64,000 nucleotides of DNA from Haliscomenobacter hydrossis DSM 1100. GTDB lineage: Bacteria; Bacteroidota; Bacteroidia; Chitinophagales; Saprospiraceae. Shown here piece after piece: positions 455 through 48,176 of this stretch. The translations under genes and the position numbers were made by a program. The notes under the pieces are model-generated. The model was not told the DNA's origin. It searched no databases and saw only the letters and a list, made by a program, of their open reading frames with translations. The number at the start of each line of letters is the position of its first letter. Positions within the stretch are counted from its first letter, which is position 1. The stretch is from NCBI RefSeq assembly GCF_000212735.1, contig NC_015510.1:6263001-6327000 (forward strand), read 5' to 3'.

Positions 455-958
455 TCACCCATGCAAAAACCCCTCCACCGCATGCGCCAATTTTCTGAAA
501 TTGGCCGGAATGATGTTTCCAATAACCGCCTCAATGCCCTGTTGCAATACGCCGATCGTTCCGCCATTCCACTGGAGATTGCCTTGAACACTCAGTCGGC
601 AGCCTCTGCCACCAAGGGCTGGTTCAAACAAGGTCACTCCGGTGCAATCCATTTTTTCTTTAAAATAATGCGAATGGATGACCCAGTGGCAAGTGCGGCT
701 AGAGGTTTTCCACACCGCAGTATCGGTCCATGTCAACATGTCGGGTTGGATCATACTTTTTAAAAAATCGGGTAACATGGGCTTCGCTTTCCAGACGTTG
801 GTGATGACCACCTCGCTCGCTTCCGAAACTTGCCGTTCTTGCAGCTGAATAGATTCGATGTCGTCTACTTGGAATGCTATTTCCGACAATTGGTTTTGCA
901 TGGCCTCCCATACGGGTTCCAGCGGATGTTTGATGATGACTACGGTGTTGATCTGCAT
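455..958 (-). CDS. SRPBCC-like (START-fold) protein, 167 aa
   Basis: A cytosolic protein with no signal peptide. The opening strand followed by a helix starting HPLEPVWEAM is the typical beginning of the SRPBCC/polyketide-cyclase fold, and the C-terminal amphipathic helix (ANFRKLAHAVEGF) is the typical long closing helix. The fold usually binds a hydrophobic ligand in its central cavity; the ligand here is unknown. The mid-part (TWTDTAVWKTSSRTCHWVIHS) is the core sheet. It lies downstream of, and on the same strand as, the long operon ending at 1164, but a hairpin repeat (1003-1150) sits between them, so co-transcription is uncertain. The DUF362 protein of that operon also carries an SRPBCC-like half, which makes a functional link plausible. 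The family call is by fold pattern only. Confidence 0.55.
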   Translation of the reverse strand: MQINTVVIIKHPLEPVWEAMQNQLSEIAFQVDDIESIQLQERQVSEASEVVITNVWKAKPMLPDFLKSMIQPDMLTWTDTAVWKTSSRTCHWVIHSHYFKEKMDCTGVTLFEPALGGRGCRLSVQGNLQWNGGTIGVLQQGIEAVIGNIIPANFRKLAHAVEGFLHG

Positions 959-1163: not shown

Positions 1164-2210
1164 TTATGGATGAAGCGCGCGGTATTCAAAAACTTCCTTC
1201 GACAATTGCAGGCTTGCCCTTACCGAAGCAGGAATATGTGTTGATGCAACCAGCCAGGAAATGGCTTTGACCAATGCTGCTTTTGTCGGGATGGGTTTGT
1301 ACCCGAGTCGAGCGGCTTTTTCATGGCTGTACCAATAATAATTGCCCACCATCCGGGCTTGCTCCCGGGTAGAGGCGGGCCTTTGTTGGGTCAAAAATCC
1401 CAGGGCCTCGTGGAAGATGGACCCCAAATAAGCCGAGGTGTGGTAGGCCTTGAGGTAGGGTCCCGGCAGGCCACAAAGTTGAGAAATTAGTTTATGTACT
1501 TCGGCCCACTCCAAATTTTCGCTGCCGAGGATATAACGTTCCCCACTTTTGCCTTTTTCGGCCAGCAGGATATGCCCCGCAGCCACATCGCTTACGGCCA
1601 CCATGTTGCAGCCACCAATCCAGGTGGTTTTAAAGGGATCTTGGAGGTAACTGACGATGGCGTGATTGCTTTCCGTGAGGCCGTAATCATTGCCCCCCAC
1701 CGTGAGGGTAGGGTGTACGGTAACGAGATCCAGACCCAATTGGGCGGCGTATTCAACAGCGGTTGATTCCTGCATTTTTTTGGCCATCACGTACGCGGTG
1801 GCGTCGTCCAGGGTGTCGGTAGACAACTCGTCGCGGATGTTTTTTTTGGCGTCAGCGCCCAGGGTGACGGAAGATGAAGTAAGGATCACCCGCTTGACCC
1901 GGGCTTTGGAAGCCGCCTCCAGTACATGGATGATGCCTCGTTTGGCCTCGTTGATGAGCTCATGGGCAGGGGTGCCGGAATAGGCAAATACGCCGGCCAC
2001 ATGAAATAGAAAATCACAGCCCTGCGCAGCCTTTTCCAGGGTTTCAGCTTGCAGGATATCCCCATAACAAATGTCCACCTCAAGTTTGGCCAGGCTGCGC
2101 AAATCAGAAGTCGTACGTACCAGGGCTTTAACAGCGTAACCTTTGTCGTGCAATGCTTGACAAAGATGACATCCAATAAATCCGTTTGCGCCCGTGACGA
2201 GAACTTGCAT
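1164..2210 (-). CDS. NAD(P)-dependent extended SDR (epimerase/dehydratase family)
   Basis: A 348-residue extended short-chain dehydrogenase. TGANGFIG at residues 6-13 is the nucleotide-binding loop. TSSS at 111-114 and Y140-x3-K144 (YVMAK) give the Ser-Tyr-Lys catalytic set, and TVHPTLTVG corresponds to the conserved substrate-side loop. The overall style resembles the hopanoid-associated sugar epimerase/dihydroflavonol reductase/3-beta-hydroxysteroid dehydrogenase branch, so the substrate could be a sugar nucleotide or a polycyclic lipid alcohol; the sequence does not decide. It is the last gene of the compact minus-strand operon beginning at 8441, starting 14 bp after the DUF362 gene stop. 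ATG at 2210 starts directly at the Rossmann strand, so the start is secure. No signal peptide. Confidence 0.85.
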
Positions 2211-2224
2211 GCGAGTTGGGTTTT

Positions 2225-4360
2225 TTATTTGGGATTCAACAATTGAATGTCTTTGCCAATGGCCGTCATCAATTCACCCACAAAACGCGCGGCCGCATCC
2301 TGGCTGGTATTCCCGGTTTTTGCCGCAACGAAATGCCGAAAACCGTGTTCATCCGCGGCTATTTCAGAAAAACCGGGGAGTGCATTGGCCTGATTGATCC
2401 AGTTTTTGTAAAGATTGACCAGCATTAAAAACAAGTCCTTGAGTTGTTCCGCCTCGCTGGGCAATCCGACTACATTTTCTTCCCCGAATGTTTGGTCCAA
2501 GGTTTTGCCAATAAAAGGGAAACGACCTTCGTAAGCCGCTTCAAAATTGGCGATGGTTCGGGAAAAAAACTGGTTGTAAGCATCCGAAACCAGGGTTTCT
2601 TTTACGTCCGCTAAATAGTCGAGGTTGAACACTTGCCAAAAAAGTGGGAGCGCAAACTTTTGGCGGGCCACGATGACGATCCGCACGCCACCGGGATCAC
2701 GGGCAAAGGAAACCAACCCATCATCATAATCTGCCGATTGATTGGCACTGTACATCGAGCGCCAGTAATTGTGCTGCTGATCAGGGTCATATTTGATGCG
2801 TTCAATTTTATCCACATCAATGTGTTTGCCTCCAAACAGGACCATCCAGTTGGGCTGGGGCAGGTAAATGTCTCGCTCAGCTTGATGAATTACGCGACCC
2901 TGTTCATCCCTGGTTACGGTGACTCTGGTCCCGCCAATGTTGTCGTACATCATTTGAACGGCTTGACAGATGTCGACCTTTTTGATGAAATCATCGTAAG
3001 GAACCGGAATGATGCGGACGTATTCAAATATGACCGAGCCGTCGATGTACCTCCGGCGCAAGCCATTTCGGTCGGTCGGCGTATGTTGCAGGATCGTCTG
3101 TAGGGGGAGGATGTAATCTTCAATTTCTTCAAAAGTGGAAAAACTGATTTGCTCCAGGTTGATGTTCAAACGGGAATCGATCCGGTTCAAACGATCTTTG
3201 TCAAACATGATTTGCCATCCTTTACGGAAACTTTCGAGGTTGGCCAGCGCATTGTTGATCACAATCAAACCCCAATACGCGGCGGGGTTTTGATCGAGGT
3301 GTTGCAAACGGGTTGAAAAAATGCTGTTCAACTGCTGGTCGAAGATGTTTTTAAAGGGAAACAGCTCTGTATTGACTGCTTGGATACATACTTTGGCAAA
3401 CCTTTGAGCCAGGGGGGACTGGTTGCGCTTTTGGGCGGATTCCCGCAGGTGGATGGGCACGTTTTTCCAACCCGGGTAAGGCGATAAATCTCCTTTGATG
3501 GTATACTTTACGGGCAAACCAACTTGTCGAAAAACAGTGGCATTTACGTTCGACAAATAGGGGTCAAGCCCCATTTTTAAAGCCGCAATCCAATCCGCCA
3601 ACAACAAATCTGCGGAGGCTATGAAGGTATGGGTAGCTAAGGGATTACTTTGGGTGTTGCCCAGATAGCCGTGGTTGCTCTGCCAGGCGTCTACGATTGT
3701 GAAATGGATTTTGCTGTGCAGGTAAAGGTCCAGAGCCACTTCTTCTTTTTTCAGCCGATGCTGGTAGTGGAATGTTTTGGCCCGCAGGGGCAAACTGGCC
3801 AGGAGGTTGTGCAATCCCAGGGCGTAAGCTTGTTCCTCGTCGGTTTTATTTTTACAAAAAATGATGCGAAAATGAGCGCTTTGCCAATGCGTGGACAAGG
3901 AAGTCCCCGCCAAAATACTCCCTGCGGGAAAACCGCCATCGTCGAGGGATTCACTCAAATTTAAGACATCATACGGGTGCCCTCGATCGGTCGTGAAGCG
4001 GTATCCGCCCAGGTCGGCTAAGGACAACACGTCGCGGTTTTCCAACCAAAGTGCCGTATCGTTTTCGGCATTCGCAAGCACCACATTGGGATAACCTTGC
4101 TCCTGTAACAAATCGATCAATGCTTCAACAACTTGGGGGTCTGTACCAGTATTGCCCCGGTAGTCGAACAGTTCAAAATCCGGATGAATGAGGATCCGAA
4201 AATCTGCTTTTTCAAGTTTGAGGCTTTGCCTTTCCCGTTCAATGGTTTCAATAAAATTGGCCTGCACCAGGGTTTCACCCAACACAGATTTGACCGCAAC
4301 ATCCCCGCTGTGCGCAGTGCAAATACCGACCGAAGGAGTGATGTCGCTGCGTTCAATCAT
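2225..4360 (-). CDS. DUF362-domain protein with C-terminal SRPBCC-like half
   Basis: About 711 residues. The first 300 or so match the DUF362 layout: a strand with a Pro (RILIHPDFELFDY), the GNTGTDPQVVEALI helix, an acidic/aromatic strand, a conserved lysine segment (IFCKNKT), an AKTFHYQH stretch, HFTIVDAW and a DPYLSN region. The cysteine clusters of ferredoxin-fused DUF362 proteins are absent. The C-terminal half (from about residue 440) has a long mixed sheet (SVIFEYVRIIPVPYDD, RVTVTRDEQGRVI, GGVRIVIVARQKFALPLFWQV) that looks like an SRPBCC/START fold; this second call is tentative. I chose the ATG at 4360 (MIERSD) over 4387 because it overlaps the upstream gene by only 8 bp. No export signal. 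Enzymatic role unknown; the neighbours suggest a cytosolic assembly handling a hydrophobic compound. Confidence 0.7.
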   Translation of the reverse strand: MIERSDITPSVGICTAHSGDVAVKSVLGETLVQANFIETIERERQSLKLEKADFRILIHPDFELFDYRGNTGTDPQVVEALIDLLQEQGYPNVVLANAENDTALWLENRDVLSLADLGGYRFTTDRGHPYDVLNLSESLDDGGFPAGSILAGTSLSTHWQSAHFRIIFCKNKTDEEQAYALGLHNLLASLPLRAKTFHYQHRLKKEEVALDLYLHSKIHFTIVDAWQSNHGYLGNTQSNPLATHTFIASADLLLADWIAALKMGLDPYLSNVNATVFRQVGLPVKYTIKGDLSPYPGWKNVPIHLRESAQKRNQSPLAQRFAKVCIQAVNTELFPFKNIFDQQLNSIFSTRLQHLDQNPAAYWGLIVINNALANLESFRKGWQIMFDKDRLNRIDSRLNINLEQISFSTFEEIEDYILPLQTILQHTPTDRNGLRRRYIDGSVIFEYVRIIPVPYDDFIKKVDICQAVQMMYDNIGGTRVTVTRDEQGRVIHQAERDIYLPQPNWMVLFGGKHIDVDKIERIKYDPDQQHNYWRSMYSANQSADYDDGLVSFARDPGGVRIVIVARQKFALPLFWQVFNLDYLADVKETLVSDAYNQFFSRTIANFEAAYEGRFPFIGKTLDQTFGEENVVGLPSEAEQLKDLFLMLVNLYKNWINQANALPGFSEIAADEHGFRHFVAAKTGNTSQDAAARFVGELMTAIGKDIQLLNPK

Positions 4361-5618
4361 CCCCCACAATTTTAGTGGTGAAACCATCTTCCTGAGCCGG
4401 GCTTACCAAATAGCTGTGGTGAAAGCCCAGGCGGGGGTCGCCCAATTTTCCAACGTAGGGCACGTATCCCTGAATGTCGGGCATGGGAACCCGCAGTCGC
4501 GTGGTAAGGGAAGGATAATCGTATACCGTGATGTGGTTCAGCCCCCGGTTGGCCGTGAACAACAAACTTTGGTTTTTTGACAACTGGCAGGCGTGTACCG
4601 AATCCATCAACCTGAACCTGCTGACCCGCAGTGCCCCCATCAAATGTTGATTGGACGAAAACAGGTTCCCGCGTACCAAAGAATCGTACACGGTGGTGGC
4701 CATGGTGCGTTTGTGGTTGAGGGTTTCGAGAAGGGCGGGTTTTTCGTCAATCATTCTAAATTTCGAAAAACTTTTCAAATCAATAAAAACGATGGTATGG
4801 CTGCCCCCGTTGCAAAAAATCAGTTCGGTATCGGAGATGGTTACATCCGAATTGATGTGCGCCGGAATTTCCCGGCCACAGGTCCAGTGGCGGACTACCC
4901 GCTTTTCTTTGGCATCAATTTCAAAGGCGTATTCTTTAAAAAAAGCCATGGCCCATTGGTGGTAGTCCTGATGGTTCTGGGGCAAAACCCGGAAAGACAC
5001 CGCATAAAACAGGTCTTTTTTGGGATGCTGCACGATGTGCCAACAAGTAGCCGGAAGTTCAATGCGGGTGGCCTCTCCGGTCTCCATGTCCCAAACCCCA
5101 ACCATTTTGGCTTCGCCATTGCGGCCAAAAGAGGGATTATCCATCGAACCATAACAAAGGTAACGACCCGAAGCGCTGAATTTCATGCTGTGTGGCAGCA
5201 TGATTTTGTGCGGCCCCAACTTGCGGCCTTTGTCCAGGTGATTGATGTTGAACTGGTAAAAATAATCGCCCACCGCCGCAATGAACTCCTGGTCGTTGAT
5301 CCAAACAACGTGGGTACTACCGTAGATGCTGGTGTCATTTTTTTCGTAGAACAAGGTGGATTGTCGCTGTAATTCCTCCAGCGTAAAAGGGTCATACAAC
5401 ATCAGGTGTTGGCCGGTGGTACCGAGGTAGCCGTAATTGCCATTGGGGCTGATGTGTACGGCGTGTCCTCCGGCCAGTCCGTTGAAATATTTGATTTTGA
5501 AAGCGAAGGTATTGTCCACTGGATCGAATAAAAAACAACATACGCCGGCCATGCCTTCTAACCCGTTTATTCCGTTGCCGTCCAGGGCAATATGAAAAGC
5601 ATATGGGTATTTTTTCAT
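4353..5618 (-). CDS. Cytosolic beta-propeller protein, function unknown
   Basis: 421 residues without a signal peptide, made of repeated four-strand blades: HAVHISPNGNYGYLGTT, HSMKFSASGRYLCYGS, HIVQHPKKDLFYAVSF, HACQLSKNQSLLFTANRG. The pattern (H-x-x-x-x-S/P-x-G/N-x-x-hydrophobic) is that of YVTN/WD-like propellers. Many blades start with a histidine, and the motif GGHAVHI near residue 50 could bind a metal, although no enzyme family is recognised. Similar propellers are known as carotenoid oxygenases, lactonases and selenium-binding-type proteins; none fits well enough to name. It is the fifth gene of the operon, starting 17 bp after the preceding stop and overlapping the next gene by 8 bp, so translation is probably coupled. 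Confidence 0.7.
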   Translation of the reverse strand: MKKYPYAFHIALDGNGINGLEGMAGVCCFLFDPVDNTFAFKIKYFNGLAGGHAVHISPNGNYGYLGTTGQHLMLYDPFTLEELQRQSTLFYEKNDTSIYGSTHVVWINDQEFIAAVGDYFYQFNINHLDKGRKLGPHKIMLPHSMKFSASGRYLCYGSMDNPSFGRNGEAKMVGVWDMETGEATRIELPATCWHIVQHPKKDLFYAVSFRVLPQNHQDYHQWAMAFFKEYAFEIDAKEKRVVRHWTCGREIPAHINSDVTISDTELIFCNGGSHTIVFIDLKSFSKFRMIDEKPALLETLNHKRTMATTVYDSLVRGNLFSSNQHLMGALRVSRFRLMDSVHACQLSKNQSLLFTANRGLNHITVYDYPSLTTRLRVPMPDIQGYVPYVGKLGDPRLGFHHSYLVSPAQEDGFTTKIVGDD

Positions 5619-5635
5619 AATGTCCGAGGGGTACT

Positions 5636-6373
5636 TTAGCTTTTTTTCACTTTAGTTTTTTTCACGGACAAACCTTCTCCACGAGGTTTTGAGCTGCGCG
5701 ATGTGGCTCGTCGGGGTGCAGGTTTGGGAGGGTTTTCTTCCTGTGGTTTTTCTACTGGGATCTGTTGACTTTGCACGGATAAAATCAGGTCAAAAATGGA
5801 ATTTTTATAGCCATTGATCACGATGGTGGTCTTGTAGTGACCCGGATTTGCATCAGCAGGAACACTGACATACATTTGGGCCTCTACTTCTTCATTCGGC
5901 AAAAGCACAAAGGTTTCAGGGGTGAAGCGGAGGTAAAAAGCGACTGGATTACCCCTCAGAACATCCGTAAATCCGTTGGATTCCAGGCGGCAGTTGTACT
6001 GCAGATTGTCGTTGCTCCGCAAACGAATGAGCATGACCGCGGTTTCTCCCGGAACCCCTTGCAGGAACATTTCCTTGCGTTTTTCCTGCACGATGGGCGC
6101 TTCCTCAAAAACCTCGGTTTTGCTTTTTGTATTTTCAAAGGAAAGGTCGTACAGGCTTTCGGCGTACTTGATCTGCAATTGCACCCAGTGTTTCCAGGAG
6201 TCGGCGAGGGTGTCTACAATTCCATCGACGGATACGCCACTTTTTTGGCTGGTATAGAACTGTTGCCAGGTTATGGCCATGTCTTTCCAGTAGGTTGTGC
6301 TTGCCTCGACGGATTTTTTTACCACCCGATCGAGGTTTTTTAATAGGTCTTCAGGTTTGCCGAATTCTGCCAT
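5636..6373 (-). CDS. Phasin-like helical plus Ig-like protein with basic tail
   Basis: 245 residues in three parts. Residues 1-95 are amphipathic helices rich in Trp, Tyr and Gln (TYWKDMAITWQQFYT, SWKHWVQLQIKYAESLY), like phasins or the PhaE subunit that coat polyhydroxyalkanoate granules. Residues about 100-205 form a seven-strand Ig-like domain (ETAVMLIRLRSND, PVAFYLRFTPETFVLLPNEE, GHYKTTIVINGYKN). Residues 210-245 are a Pro/Ala/Lys/Arg tail (KPAPRRATSRSSKPRG, VKKTKVKKS), as seen in nucleoid-binding phasins. It shares this architecture with the next upstream gene (6412-7083), so the two are probably divergent paralogues. No signal peptide. The phasin comparison rests on composition and pattern, not on a database hit. 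Confidence 0.6.
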   Translation of the reverse strand: MAEFGKPEDLLKNLDRVVKKSVEASTTYWKDMAITWQQFYTSQKSGVSVDGIVDTLADSWKHWVQLQIKYAESLYDLSFENTKSKTEVFEEAPIVQEKRKEMFLQGVPGETAVMLIRLRSNDNLQYNCRLESNGFTDVLRGNPVAFYLRFTPETFVLLPNEEVEAQMYVSVPADANPGHYKTTIVINGYKNSIFDLILSVQSQQIPVEKPQEENPPKPAPRRATSRSSKPRGEGLSVKKTKVKKS

Positions 6374-6411
6374 AAGAGAAAATCTTGTGGAATAAAAAAT
6401 GGATTGTGGTA

Positions 6412-7083
6412 TCAGCCTTGATCACCAGCTCTGCGCCCGGGTTGTTGTTCGCAGTAAAAATGATCTTGCCAACTGCTCCAACGCATTAAATAGTGTTTTT
6501 CATCGAGCGGACGCACTTCAATGGTTGAATTGAGGGAAACCATTTTAAGGGTAAAACACACGTTTTGATTGACCTTGTCTTCTCGAATCACAATGTTTGC
6601 CGAGTACGTTTCCCCACGATTAAAGCCCTCTTGCAGATTGAGGGTCATCTTTACAGTAATGGCCTGGCCTGGCTCTAGACTGATCTGGGAGGTATCCAGG
6701 GAGGGTTGAGCAGGAGTTGGCTTACCCTGTTCGTCAACGAGTGGGCGAATCCCGATTTGATAGGTACGGCTTTTGCCACAAGTGTTTTTGATGCTAAAGG
6801 GCACAACGATTATTTCTCCGGGGGAGGCTTCGCGATGAATTTCCGCCAGGCAATGGGGTGGGCATTTTGGTTCAGGTGGACAAACGGATGAAGAGCGACC
6901 ACAATCCTGATTGGCCTTATTGTAATCGACCACCAGACTGCTCCATTGATCCGCCATGCGCAAGTTGTTTTGCATCAGTTGTTCCCACGCTGATTCATAC
7001 ATTCCCGTAAATGAACGTGCCATTCTCATCCATTCATTGGCATTGGAAAACAACATATTTTGAGCATTTTTTAACTGATCCAT
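6412..7083 (-). CDS. Phasin-like helical plus Ig-like protein
   Basis: 223 residues. The N-terminal 55 form helices with the phasin look (MDQLKNAQNMLFSNANEWMR, TGMYESAWEQLMQNNLRMAD). A short Cys/Pro linker follows (CGRSSSVCPPEPKCPPHCL, four Cys in 19 residues, possibly a metal site or disulphide knot). The Ig-like domain comes after it (ASPGEIIVVPFSIKNTCG, SLEPGQAITVKMTLNLQ, NQNVCFTLKMVSL). The paired sequence PGEIIVVPFSIKN is typical of the first strands of cytosolic Ig-like/COG1470-type domains. The sister gene at 5636-6373 has the same order of parts plus a basic tail. It follows the Ig-protein gene by 39 bp. No export signal. Role inferred: a structural coat or scaffold protein. Confidence 0.6.
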   Translation of the reverse strand: MDQLKNAQNMLFSNANEWMRMARSFTGMYESAWEQLMQNNLRMADQWSSLVVDYNKANQDCGRSSSVCPPEPKCPPHCLAEIHREASPGEIIVVPFSIKNTCGKSRTYQIGIRPLVDEQGKPTPAQPSLDTSQISLEPGQAITVKMTLNLQEGFNRGETYSANIVIREDKVNQNVCFTLKMVSLNSTIEVRPLDEKHYLMRWSSWQDHFYCEQQPGRRAGDQG

Positions 7084-7122
7084 TGGTTATGTTTTTAGAA
7101 TTAAGTATTGGTTGACAGCTGC

Positions 7123-7914
7123 TCAGGCTCTTTTTTTCGGAGTTTTAGCGGTAGGTTTTGGTCCAGGTACGATGATGTAACTCAGCAATTGATCCAGGAT
7201 GCGCAAATCGCCTTCGTATTCGCGATTTGGATTGATGTCTTTGGGTAACGTAAATTCAAGATGCAACACGATGGACGAACCCGGCTCCAACACTTTGCCT
7301 GCTTCAGCGATGCGTACTTCCACCCAGTCGGTCAGGTCGTTTTTAAGCCCTTTCAGGAATTCATCCATCGTGGCTTTGGAGTCACCATCCGGCGTTTTTT
7401 TTAGTGCGTTGGTCAAGTTGCGACAGATGAGGTCCATGTCCAGGGTCATGTTGTGGCGGACAACGGGAATTGAAAATGCAACATTGCCTTTATTGACCAG
7501 GATGATTTCTTTTTTGTGTTTCATTCCCGGTGCAATGCCTACAAAAGTAAGGTTTGCCGGAATGAGTTCTATTTCCAGGGTTTCTTGTACAATGAGGGTG
7601 AGGTCTTTTTCTTGCCCACCAACGAACACTTTATGCTGGTAGGTTCCCGGAGCGGTAAAAGTCGGCAGCGACAAATTGAGTCTTTGTCTCCGGTTTTCTC
7701 CAGCAGACAGTGGAGCATTGATGGTGATTCCTGCTTGTTGTATCACCTGACGGCTCAATGATTTTATCGGCAAATCCGTCACCATTACGGCTTCAGCAAG
7801 ATTGTTGGCCAGGGTGATGCTGCCCCTTAACTTTGCAGGTGGCCCACTCAAAATGATCTCATCGTCGTAGCAATGAATCTGTTCATGCTGCTCTTGGGAA
7901 GTAATTTTTATCAT
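7123..7914 (-). CDS. Two-domain Ig-like protein with basic C-terminus
   Basis: 263 residues without a signal peptide. Two all-beta domains are visible. Residues about 20-110 contain LRGSITLANNLAEAVMV and GTYQHKVFVGGQEKDLTLIV. Residues about 113-250 contain LTFVGIAPGMKHKKEIILVN, SSIVLHLEFTLPKDINP and YEGDLRILDQLLSYIIV. Both have the Ig-like/COG1470 flavour also found in the two downstream phasin-like proteins. A helical insertion (CRNLTNALKKTPDGDS through DEFLKGLKNDLTDWV) sits in the second domain. The end is GPKPTAKTPKKRA, a basic tail like that of the 5636-6373 protein. Its ATG overlaps the stop of the first operon gene by 4 bp (ATGA), indicating coupled translation. Function unknown; probably structural. 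Confidence 0.6.
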   Translation of the reverse strand: MIKITSQEQHEQIHCYDDEIILSGPPAKLRGSITLANNLAEAVMVTDLPIKSLSRQVIQQAGITINAPLSAGENRRQRLNLSLPTFTAPGTYQHKVFVGGQEKDLTLIVQETLEIELIPANLTFVGIAPGMKHKKEIILVNKGNVAFSIPVVRHNMTLDMDLICRNLTNALKKTPDGDSKATMDEFLKGLKNDLTDWVEVRIAEAGKVLEPGSSIVLHLEFTLPKDINPNREYEGDLRILDQLLSYIIVPGPKPTAKTPKKRA

Positions 7915-8441
7915 GAGTGGGCGGGGTTAGTGGGATCATTAGGATGAGACGAAGGAGTTCGGGGAAAAGGACGGGTGTCTGGCTCGCAACAAGAAATTTC
8001 ACAACGCTCGTAAGCGTTGGGCACATAAGGCTCGGTGATGACCTGAGACTCCCCACTGGTGCAGATGTTAAACACCTCAATGCCAAGCAATTTGAAACTG
8101 ACCTGGTTGTAATTCGGGATGCGCACCCTGATCTCGGGCGTGAGCAAGTCTTTGAGGTCTTGTTTGCTAAAGTTAGGCAGATTGAGCAGTTCCACCTGTG
8201 ATACAATGGGTTTGTCCTTATTGCCTTGTATGGTGGTAGTAATAGGTTTTGCTTCGTTGCCCTGAATCGTAGTGGTTATGGGTTGGTTTGGATCTCCCAG
8301 AATCAGCGAAGCGACTGGTTGATTTTTGTCGCCAATTACTTTGGTTGTCACTTCAACTGGAGTCATGATAATGTTCAGACCATTATCAAAATCCAGGTGA
8401 TGGGTATAATCATTTGGAATTTTGATGGAAGGAGAAGCCAT
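7911..8441 (-). CDS. Protein with four tandem 12-residue beta repeats, operon leader gene
   Basis: 176 residues, no signal peptide. Residues 37-84 are four 12-residue repeats with the consensus G-[DN]-x-x-[QK]-P-[IV]-x-x-x-[IV]-x: GDKNQPVASLIL, GDPNQPITTTIQ, GNEAKPITTTIQ, GNKDKPIVSQVE. This regularity suggests a short beta-solenoid or stacked hairpins. After it come a helix (FSKQDLKDLLTPEIRVRIP), a beta segment (VSFKLLGIEVFNI) and a Cys/Pro-rich end (CEISCCEPDTRPFPR). No family is recognised. It is the first gene of the operon: a good Bacteroidota-type promoter lies 22-52 bp upstream, and the next gene overlaps its stop by 4 bp. Confidence 0.6.
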   Translation of the reverse strand: MASPSIKIPNDYTHHLDFDNGLNIIMTPVEVTTKVIGDKNQPVASLILGDPNQPITTTIQGNEAKPITTTIQGNKDKPIVSQVELLNLPNFSKQDLKDLLTPEIRVRIPNYNQVSFKLLGIEVFNICTSGESQVITEPYVPNAYERCEISCCEPDTRPFPRTPSSHPNDPTNPAHS

Positions 8442-8462: not shown

Positions 8463-8493
8463 CAAATTTAAGGGTATTTAGCTTGAAAATCAA
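8463..8493 (-). promoter_or_regulatory. Predicted promoter of the 8441-1164 operon
   Basis: On the minus strand a perfect TAAATTTG (-7 box, TAnnTTTG) reads from 8470 to 8463. A TTG (-33 element) ends 20 bp upstream (8493-8491). The expected transcript start is about 8456, 15 bp before the ATG at 8441. This matches the Bacteroidota primary-sigma consensus and is the best promoter seen in the window. Confidence 0.5.
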
Positions 8494-10899: not shown

Positions 10900-12017
10900 G
10901 GCGTTGTTGCATGAATCTCCACTAAAAAAATAGGCTGATCCGGTTAAATTTGCTTTTGCGAAGAACAACCCAACCCAACCAGCCCATGTCAAAGGTAACT
11001 AAAGCAGATCAGGGAAGCAATAAGCCAAAGCAAAAATACCAGATTGAAAACTGGTCAAGCTACAATCAGAGCTTAGTTAATCGAGGCAATATCACCTTAT
11101 ACATCTCGGACGCAGCCATAAAAAGTTGGAATGAGACTGGCCCCAAAGCACGTGGCGGGCAATATGTATACAGTGATATATGCATAGAAACGATCTTCAT
11201 GCTCAAGACGGTATTCAAGTTGGCGTATCGTCAAGCCACCGGTTTTACTCAAAGTCTGTTGGTAATAATGGGTTGTAAAGAACTTAAAGTACCTTGTTAC
11301 ACCCAAGTGAGCCGTCGGGTCAAGGAACTGGATATTCAACCTATGGTCATCAAAACAAAAGGCTCTATCACTATTGCCATCGATTCTACCGGGATCAAAG
11401 TGTTTGGGGAAGGAGAATGGAAAGTACGCAAACATGGGTATTCCAAGCGTCGAACCTGGCGTAAGCTGCACTTGGGTGTTGACCCTCAAACTGGCTATAT
11501 CCATTGCCATACCTTAACCCTTAATGACATTGATGATGGTTCCCAACTCAAAGATTTGATTGGACAGATCAAGCCTAAAGTCAAAGAAGGATACCTCGAT
11601 GGAGCCTACGACCACTTTGAATGCTGGGAAACTTTGATTAAGCAACAAATCAATCCGGTCATTCCCCCACGTGCCGATGCTGTGATTTGGTATGCCAAGG
11701 AGCCTGGTGATTCCCCCTACTACCCTCGAAATATGGCCATCGAACGGATCCATGAAGTAGATCGGGCAAACTGGAAAAAGGAGAGTAATTACCATCGACG
11801 AAGTTTAGCCGAGACTACCATGTTCCGTTTCAAAACGATCCACGGCCCCAGCTTTTTCTCCCGAAAATTTGAAACCCAGCAAAAAGAAACCAATATAAAA
11901 ATTAAGCTCCTCAATATCATGACAGCCCAAGGTATGCCTGTTTCTAAACCGAAAATGACTGCTTAGCTTGCCTAGCAACGGTCTTAGATATTGGCTTTTT
12001 ATTCATGCAACAACGCC
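10900..12017 (+). mobile_element. Complete IS5-family insertion sequence (IS903-like), 1118 bp
   Basis: The ends are 17-bp perfect inverted repeats GGCGTTGTTGCATGAAT. A 9-bp direct target duplication GTATACTTG is found at 10891-10899 and 12018-12026. One transposase gene fills the element. A 9-bp duplication is what the IS903 group of IS5 produces. The intact duplication and intact gene point to a recent insertion between the divergent AraC-regulator and DPP-IV genes. Confidence 0.95.
10986..11966 (+). CDS. IS5-family DDE transposase
   Basis: 326 residues from the ATG at 10986; a TTG start at 10950 would add an unlikely 12-residue leader. The N-terminus IENWSSYNQSLVNRGNITLYI is the IS903/IS1112-type opening. 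The DDE residues are visible: D in IAIDSTGIKV, D in GYLDGAYD, and the signature Y-x2-R-x3-E-x6-K in YHRRSLAETTMFRFK, which fits the consensus exactly. GEGEWKVRKHGYSKRRTWRK is the conserved block after the first Asp. Length and motifs are complete, so the enzyme is probably active. It cuts and joins the 17-bp inverted repeats at 10900 and 12017. Confidence 0.95.
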   Translation: MSKVTKADQGSNKPKQKYQIENWSSYNQSLVNRGNITLYISDAAIKSWNETGPKARGGQYVYSDICIETIFMLKTVFKLAYRQATGFTQSLLVIMGCKELKVPCYTQVSRRVKELDIQPMVIKTKGSITIAIDSTGIKVFGEGEWKVRKHGYSKRRTWRKLHLGVDPQTGYIHCHTLTLNDIDDGSQLKDLIGQIKPKVKEGYLDGAYDHFECWETLIKQQINPVIPPRADAVIWYAKEPGDSPYYPRNMAIERIHEVDRANWKKESNYHRRSLAETTMFRFKTIHGPSFFSRKFETQQKETNIKIKLLNIMTAQGMPVSKPKMTA

Positions 12018-47037: not shown

Positions 47038-47198
47038 GGATGCCTGGTGGTTTGGCCGCTGGGCGGCAGGTTGATAGAAAGGAGTAAATGTAGGATTTTT
47101 TAGGTTTTGTAAGTGTAGGTGTTTTGCGATGGGTGGATATTTTTAATTCCACCCACAAAATCTTTATCTTCGCCTTCAACAAAAAACTCCATACCCAC

Positions 47199-48176
47199 AT
47201 GCACGGCATCGACAAAGAAATCGAAGGTCTCAAGACAAAGCTCAATTTATTGATCGACAAAAAGAACCGCCTGGATTTGGCATTGGTAGATGCCTACGAT
47301 GAGGAAAAGAAATTTGCGCTAAAGCGGCAAGTTGAAGGACTGGAAAATGAGATCAAAGCGGTAAGAGAACGTATTAAAGATTTGGAACAGCAAATCCAAG
47401 CTGGTCCAGTCACCCCTCCCAAGGCCACTACCCCCCAAACTCCCCAAAACAAAGACGCACTCCTGGCCCTCATCAGCGACGGGCACCTAAAGGAAGCCCT
47501 GGGCTATTTGAGCACTTTGCTCCCCGCCCGCGAGCGCAACGACCTCGTTTTACTGCAATCCCGCTTCAATGGCCTGGAGCGCAACATCAACAGTGGGATC
47601 ATGTTGCAAGCTGATGCCGGGGTGGAACGGGCCCGCATCACCGCCGCAACTTTGGCCATGTGCGACCGGGTAGAAGATGGTGCTTTTGCGGCCTTGCCCA
47701 AAACCAACCCCACCAGCATGGATTCCCCCAAAGTAGCTACCCACAGCGGCAAAAAGATCTTTTTTTCTTACTCGCAATACGATCGCCCCTACCTGGATCA
47801 ACTGCTGCGCCACATGGCGGGCCTGCGCCGTCAGGGCAAAATTGCGCCCTGGAACGATCAGGACATCCTCCCCGGTGAAGAATGGGACGATGCCATCAAA
47901 AATGAGCTCGCCACGGCGGACATCATTTTACTGCTGATCAGTTCGGATTTTTTGGCCACCGACTACATCTGGAAAGTAGAAATCGCTACGGCGATGGAGC
48001 GCCATGAACGCAAAGAAGCGCGGGTGATCCCGGTGTTCATTCGCAATTGTGATTGGAGCGGGATGCCGTTTAGCAAACTCAATGGGCTGCCTTCCAAGGC
48101 CAAACCGGTTAGCTCCTACGCCGATCGGGACGAGGCTTGGGTGGAGGTGGTGAAGGGGATTGAGCGCGTGTTGTAA
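47199..48176 (+). CDS. Coiled-coil/EAD11-like/TIR domain protein, predicted conflict-system effector
   Basis: 325 residues from the ATG at 47199. Residues 1-68 are a charged coiled coil (DKEIEGLKTKLNLLIDKKN, EGLENEIKAVRERIKDLEQQ). Residues 85-158 form the EAD11-like adaptor (DALLALISDGHLKEALGYLS, LQSRFNGLERNINSG, ADAGVERARI). Residues 184-325 are a TIR domain: KKIFFSYSQYDRPYLDQLL, WNDQDILPGEEWDDAIKNEL, DIILLLISSDFLATDYIWKV with Glu261 as the probable NADase residue, and ARVIPVFIRNCDW. Such proteins are predicted effectors recruited through homotypic EAD contacts in Bacteroidota immunity or cell-death networks. The tail gene at 1-396 has the same EAD type. A -7-like box TATCTTCG lies at 47165-47172. 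Confidence 0.85.
   Translation: MHGIDKEIEGLKTKLNLLIDKKNRLDLALVDAYDEEKKFALKRQVEGLENEIKAVRERIKDLEQQIQAGPVTPPKATTPQTPQNKDALLALISDGHLKEALGYLSTLLPARERNDLVLLQSRFNGLERNINSGIMLQADAGVERARITAATLAMCDRVEDGAFAALPKTNPTSMDSPKVATHSGKKIFFSYSQYDRPYLDQLLRHMAGLRRQGKIAPWNDQDILPGEEWDDAIKNELATADIILLLISSDFLATDYIWKVEIATAMERHERKEARVIPVFIRNCDWSGMPFSKLNGLPSKAKPVSSYADRDEAWVEVVKGIERVL

Follow-up and report, generated by a model that had tools for sequence, protein, structure and literature searches.

Several described systems resemble parts of the locus reported here. PHA granules (carbonosomes) combine PhaC/PhaE with phasins; a synthase is required for such a granule, and its known proteins do not include propellers, DUF362 proteins, or START-like proteins. 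Among the propellers with an axial metal, NosZ holds a copper cluster with seven histidines at comparable propeller places, and carotenoid oxygenases and SBP56/methanethiol oxidase are further axial-metal propellers. Proteins of the SDR and SRPBCC types are usually cytosolic. In the LarA superfamily, LarC is needed for the nickel-pincer cofactor. According to an excerpt of PMC11770544, DUF362 and the DUF2088 of LarA belong to the same Pfam clan, CL0471.

Here, we describe a set of eight genes of Haliscomenobacter hydrossis DSM 1100 that has likenesses to each of these systems. A literature search found no description of such a gene set. Its chemistry may still be of a known kind.

Arrangement of the locus

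The window, that is, the whole 64,000-base stretch that was analyzed, lies on an 8,371,686-base contig of the H. hydrossis DSM 1100 genome (8,771,651 bases, 4 contigs). A compact operon of seven minus-strand genes had been predicted at 1164–8441, and all seven open reading frames are present with the gaps of 14–39 bp and the overlaps of 4 and 8 bp that had been claimed (Table 1). They are named g1 to g7 in the order of transcription, and the SRPBCC-like gene downstream of them is named g0. The genes g1 and g2 overlap by 4 bp, and gaps of 39, 38, 17, and 14 bp separate g2–g3, g3–g4, g4–g5, and g6–g7, respectively. The overlap of g5 and g6 is 8 bp if g6 starts at 4360, and 35 bp with the upstream ATG at 4387, while the distance between g7 and g0 is 205 bp. 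The GC content of the eight genes (46.5–52.9%) is near that of the window (47.3%). No signal peptide was noticed in g0–g7, as judged by eye only, and none of g0–g5 (6 of the 8 proteins) passed a curated Pfam cut-off.

Table 1. Positions and main characteristics of the features of the gene set in the window
Feature	Position	Strand	Length (aa)	Description
-7 box	8463..8470	-		TAAATTTG; may be a -7 box of the Bacteroidota type, lying 21 bp upstream of the ATG of g1
g1	7911..8441	-	176	Scaffold candidate; beta-type GD/GN-x-KP-(I/V) repeats; conserved C-terminal part ending CExxCCEPDTRPFP
g2	7123..7914	-	263	Probably two Ig-like domains; Pfam matches below cut-off only
g3	6412..7083	-	223	Amphipathic N-terminal helices; invariant C-PP-C-PP-C motif; fn3/Ig-like domain
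g4	5636..6373	-	245	Phasin-like N-terminal helices; Ig-like domain; basic tail
g5	4353..5618	-	421	Beta-propeller; in-register ring H52 H103 H143 H194 S257 H342 H401, plus H400
g6	2225..4360	-	711	DUF362 (residues 56–260) and START/SRPBCC-like domain, probably at about 434–610
g7	1164..2210	-	348	Extended SDR; Ser112–114, Tyr140, and Lys144 unchanged in all 4 aligned proteins
g0	455..958	-	167	SRPBCC-like; DUF2505 E 3.4e-4, below cut-off

The original prediction placed these genes behind one good promoter, which was not borne out by a sigma-70 scan (16 sites, 13.6 expected). The sequence TANNTTTG, a possible Bacteroidota-type -7 box, is found 21–23 bp before the g1 ATG in three of the five g5-carrying genomes compared (the window genome, L003, and L004), and is absent upstream of g1 in L015 and L016. 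A fuller Bacteroidota promoter pattern matched four times elsewhere, with 2.46 matches expected, and the -7 box site of g1 was not among them.

About 2.5 kb upstream of g1, at 10950–11966 on the plus strand, is a transposase-like ORF (IS5-type by eye). At the beginning of the window, positions 1–396 belong to an 844-aa gene (L002:12863-15397, plus strand), which by eye has leucine-rich repeats and a Roc/GTPase-like part, and whose C-terminal stretch resembles, also by eye, one in a TIR-like gene at 47124–48176 of the window. Two adjoining and similar genes, formylglycine-generating-enzyme-like by eye and perhaps the result of a duplication, are at L002:10171-11034 and L002:11517-12263 (plus strand).

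Distribution, co-occurrence, and descent

A g5 profile search of 398 genomes of the family revealed six carriers in five genera of the Saprospiraceae, namely the window genome (G000), G475, G538, G548, G572, and G616; a seventh row (G002; 20.8 bits, three internal stops) was dropped. When g5 was used as a single-sequence query, no match beyond the window's own copy was obtained in 60 relatives or in 395 genomes of the phylum, the window genome being included in both. A g6 pattern scan of the genome contig collection, which requires identity over stretches of 8 residues and would overlook remote relatives, found two Saprospiraceae MAGs, both with g1–g7 in the same order and both among the six carriers. 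The searches covered Bacteroidota, and this one scan reached beyond them, so the limit to the family is given as seen in that range. On plasmids, neither g5 nor g6 had a match in 72,556 records, from which those of the window genome were possibly excluded.

All six carriers have g5, g7, and g0, and in five of them g1–g4 were found, g3 included (a second G572 row of the g3 search, with 20.8 bits and inside g4, was dropped). Four congeners lack g5, g0, and g3. In the 398 family genomes, the g6 profile matched five of the six carriers and one further protein, in G516, which was dropped because its match (32.2 bits, residues 50–268 only) was taken as another DUF362 protein. No g6 was seen in G475, where g5 lies 135 bases from the end of its contig and the g7 match lies 174 bases from the beginning of another. 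The gene g0 is next after g7 in five carriers, overlapping it in G572 and G538, and is on a different contig in G616. In G538, no g1–g4 were found beside g5; between g5 and g6 is an ORF of 118 aa (L014:936-1292, minus strand), whose helical product is basic near its N-terminus and which gave weak Pfam matches only (DUF6781, E 0.0065). The continuity of the operon over the contig ends in G538 and G475 was deduced from gene order. As for g1, it had no match in 295 other Bacteroidota genomes, a sample in which the other five carriers were not represented.

The recurrence of the genes as a set, which the original prediction had named as its own test, was thus found in five genera, and because other genomes repeat the order of these genes, the operon is more than a chance arrangement. 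That the genes are kept together in relatives held across the five genera, with the exceptions of G538, without g1–g4 beside g5, and of G616, with g0 elsewhere. The downstream SRPBCC-like gene had been placed outside the operon; it is present and co-occurs with the set, and g0 belongs to the set as its eighth member. The eight genes form a rare but coherent set, in which g5, g6, g7, and g0 are the core and g1–g4 the more variable part. The operons L003 and L004, of one genus, are flanked by different neighbor genes, so the position of the locus in the genome is not conserved.

Because four congeners are without g5, a recent horizontal gain by H. hydrossis was considered. The tree of the concatenated core, ((G572,G475),(G538,(G000,(G616,G548)))), had 100/100 on all inner branches, and the GyrA tree had the same branching order, with 73/79 to 82/88 on the deep branches and 58/29 for G548 and G616; in these data, g6 of G475 is absent, g6 of G538 was joined from pieces on two contigs, and G572 is represented by an incomplete GyrA. 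A recent gain was rejected on the agreement of the two trees and the GC content of the eight genes, near that of the window. No sign of a recent transfer was observed, and old inheritance with many losses fits the distribution.

The propeller protein g5

The prediction of a beta-propeller agreed with the AlphaFold2 model of g5 (mean pLDDT 64.9, moderate; pTM 0.73), which contains the propeller only and no cupredoxin domain, and with Foldseek, in which propeller proteins lead the 50 matches listed (best E 2.4e-11, 8–13% identity), Bacteroides surface-lipoprotein propellers among them. In Pfam, g5 gave weak WD40-type matches only.

The original prediction had no mention of a histidine ring or of the conservation of g5. 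Five residues before the strand-A turn, blades 1–7 carry H-H-H-H-S-H-H, that is, histidine in six of the seven blades at one register and serine in blade 5. All seven positions are invariant in the six proteins, whose alignment has 259 invariant columns, and H400, adjoining H401, is likewise invariant. This register was set on strand-A turn residues after the histidines had been seen, which is partly offset by shuffling, as none of 20,000 shuffles reached six histidines (the next best register has one), and by an ORF control, as the register motif has seven to eight copies in the six full-length g5 and six in four g5 fragments, against at most four copies per ORF in 278 other ORFs of at least 200 codons. 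Between carriers, the identity of g5 is 75.4–94.6%, compared with 65.7–85.3% for GyrA, and is higher in all 15 pairs. The conservation of g1 is similar to that of GyrA, and the remaining genes of the set are less conserved.

As in NosZ and other axial-metal propellers, inner-strand histidines are found in most blades of g5, with one HH pair; unlike NosZ, g5 has no cupredoxin domain, and no homology between the two is detectable. The window genome has a NosZ gene (L083:1009-3060, minus strand; PF18764, 111 bits) with stretches similar by eye to the histidine stretches of g5. Against this one sequence, hhalign gave a probability of 1.3% and no alignment for g5, and PF18764 had no match for g5 in the Pfam scans. 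Also without a match among the six g5 members, at E up to 1, were the Pfam models of carotenoid oxygenases and SBP56. Since g5 neither aligns with NosZ nor matches these models, metal binding is proposed from the register. The protein may function in the manner of an axial-metal propeller, and it is placed in no known family.

Enzyme-like and ligand-pocket proteins

Both parts of the predicted fusion of DUF362 with an SRPBCC-like domain in g6 were recovered. DUF362 (PF04015) scored 53.9 bits against a cut-off of 24. The model of g6 is poor overall (mean pLDDT 47.6), and the Foldseek matches listed for it are, by their titles, of the START, Bet v 1, PYL, and PRELID types; 27 of them had an E of 0.001 or better, the best among those listed had an E of 9.7e-5, and the best target TM was 0.65. 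The range given for this domain in Table 1 was read from the order of strands and helices in the model and not from the Foldseek alignment. According to the model, part of g6 carries a helix-grip (START/SRPBCC-like) fold. The g6 domain is thus like START/SRPBCC proteins by fold, and g0 is weakly so by sequence (DUF2505, 21.2 bits; cut-off 26.9). The difference from these proteins is the fusion to DUF362 in a protein of this length, and no Pfam SRPBCC model passed its cut-off.

The assignment of g7 as an extended SDR was confirmed by PF01370 (101.8 bits; cut-off 20.9) and by the Ser/Tyr-x3-Lys residues, which are present and kept in all the proteins aligned. It is similar to HpnA-like and DFR-like extended SDRs along nearly its whole length, but differs in falling below the cut-off of all 25 NCBIfam models listed; against the HpnA "sugar epimerase" it scored 244.5 bits, with a cut-off of 367.65.

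Although the DUF362 of g6 is allied to the LarA superfamily by clan (CL0471, in the excerpt of PMC11770544), LarC is missing in all six carriers, and the control matched in 6 of 14 genomes; LarA-type nickel chemistry was rejected as unlikely on this ground. Anti-phage defense was also rejected, since none of the eight proteins matched PADLOC with an E better than 0.0077, and six proteins of the set gave nothing under E 0.059 with phage families. In the PDB, no sequence relatives of g6, g5, and g3 were found beyond one row at E 0.82, and the best matches of g4 and g0 had an E of 0.01 (to a designed protein) and 0.62, respectively.

Scaffold-like proteins g1–g4

Beta repeats, Ig-like domains, phasin-like helices, and basic tails had been predicted for these four proteins. 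The layout of helices followed by an Ig-like domain was found in g3 and g4, but the phasin and Ig matches are below cut-off and a basic tail is clear in g4 only. The profiles of g3 and g4 matched each other in hhalign with a probability of 96% (E 1.4e-9, 169 columns), and in 10 of 10 proteins their helical N-terminal part has a hydrophobic moment above that of the rest of the protein. For the window proteins, the Pfam matches, all below cut-off, were fn3_5 (E 0.012) for g3 and NPCBM_assoc (E 0.0018) and Phasin_2 (E 0.062) for g4. Weak Phasin_2 matches were obtained for two of the five g4 proteins, the best being that of L004 (E 0.011, 16.4 bits; cut-off 24.9). No match to g1 was found in Pfam or NCBIfam; its C-terminal part is 69–86% identical between carriers (alignment of five), and the cysteine motifs of g1 and g3 are invariant. 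In L015 and L016, g2 has 143 and 146 aa, the length of one domain, and its first half has a weak hhalign match to g4 (62%).

Discussion

Our tentative explanation is that the eight genes encode an enzyme assembly that is held on a scaffold in the cytosol, contains a propeller with a bound metal, and modifies a hydrophobic compound. Because the gene set, the folds, and the conserved residues are what was observed, and we infer the rest, we consider it possible rather than probable. The core would be the g5 propeller, whose histidine-lined channel would probably hold a metal ion or cluster. A small hydrophobic molecule would be held out by the START-type pockets of g6 and g0 and altered chemically by the propeller, the DUF362 domain, or both, and the SDR g7, at some point in this putative order of steps, would reduce or oxidize a carbonyl or hydroxyl on it. 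The g1–g4 proteins would form a scaffold or surface layer, with amphipathic helices that may attach to one another or to a hydrophobic surface, while the Ig-like domains and the cysteine motifs of g1 and g3 may link the parts. In favor of the assembly we counted the co-occurrence and order of the genes, their close or overlapping spacing, the histidine ring and the constraint on g5, the START-type matches of g6, the SDR residues, the layout of g3 and g4, and the helical ORF between g5 and g6 in G538, where g1–g4 are missing. Against it count the failure of g5 to align with NosZ or to match the other axial-metal models, the choice of the register after the histidines had been noticed, the poor g6 model and the moderate g5 model, and the finding that no gene making a particular hydrophobic compound adjoins the set.

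The helical proteins could instead belong to the coat of a non-PHA inclusion, g3 and g4 covering a lipid, wax, carotenoid, or other hydrophobic body with g5–g7 and g0 as surface enzymes. The amphipathic helices, the basic tail of g4, the weak Phasin_2 matches, and the G538 ORF agree with this, as does the production of intracellular carotenoids by H. hydrossis mentioned in a part of PMC3156403. However, the phasin matches are below cut-off, the set has no polymer or droplet synthase, and the congeners, in which one would also expect carotenoid or lipid bodies, are without the set; we regard such a coat as rather unlikely. A granule of PHA type, with g3 and g4 as phasins and the rest modifying PHA or its precursors, is not supported. 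The set is like a carbonosome in having amphipathic helical proteins, one of them basic-tailed, beside metabolic enzymes, but the helices are fused to Ig-like domains and four of the six carriers have no PHA synthase. Class III PhaC was found in 39 of the 398 family genomes, these being the carriers G548 and G616, where it has a PhaE-like partner, and 37 of the 392 non-carriers; G000 (H. hydrossis), G475, G538, and G572 had no match, and PF07167 agreed for ten genomes. In addition, according to PMC9304909, Haliscomenobacter is proposed to store carbohydrate and not PHA. The PHA granule was therefore rejected for the window genome, and for the set it is extremely unlikely. The class III phaC genes of G616 and G548 (L017:31-2463 and L018:10-2463; TIGR01836, about 442 bits) adjoin phaE-like genes, for which PF09712 was just under its cut-off in L017, and both phaE-like proteins have a basic C-terminal tail.

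The extreme conservation of g5, above that of GyrA, would fit a structural hub equally well. The propeller and the helix-Ig proteins would then make up a cytoskeletal, nucleoid- or cell-shape-related body with the enzymes as minor partners, a picture to which the Ig, repeat, and helical proteins and the basic tail of g4 are suited. Three of the four core genes, however, look enzymatic or ligand-binding, the core exists without g1–g4 in G538, and the histidine ring is invariant, which makes a hub quite unlikely. Action outside the cytosol, in the envelope or sheath, is very unlikely, since no signal peptide was seen by eye, SDR and SRPBCC-type proteins are usually cytosolic, and the congeners are without the set. 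It would have in its favor the Bacteroides propellers among the g5 matches listed, the resemblance of g7 to HpnA, and the sheath of H. hydrossis itself, described in a part of PMC3156403.

Returning to the assembly built on a metal-binding propeller, a bolder version of it is a new class of cytosolic metalloenzyme complex, in which a NosZ-like axial propeller with seven histidines, DUF362-START and SDR partners, and a helix-Ig scaffold together perform, in a few Saprospiraceae, an undescribed redox reaction on a hydrophobic metabolite. We find this version doubtful, including its corollary that the NosZ-like site would be of independent origin or of very deep descent. If the histidine ring of g5 binds metal, it would be an axial-metal propeller without sequence relation to the NosZ compared, and a coat, if there is one, would point to a granule or metabolon that lacks any known polymer synthase. 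The metal content of g5, the ligand of g0 and g6, and the partners of g3 and g4 are the handles that the set offers. In it, the uncharacterized family DUF362 is joined by a lipid-pocket-type domain, a reductase, and a propeller more conserved than DNA gyrase.
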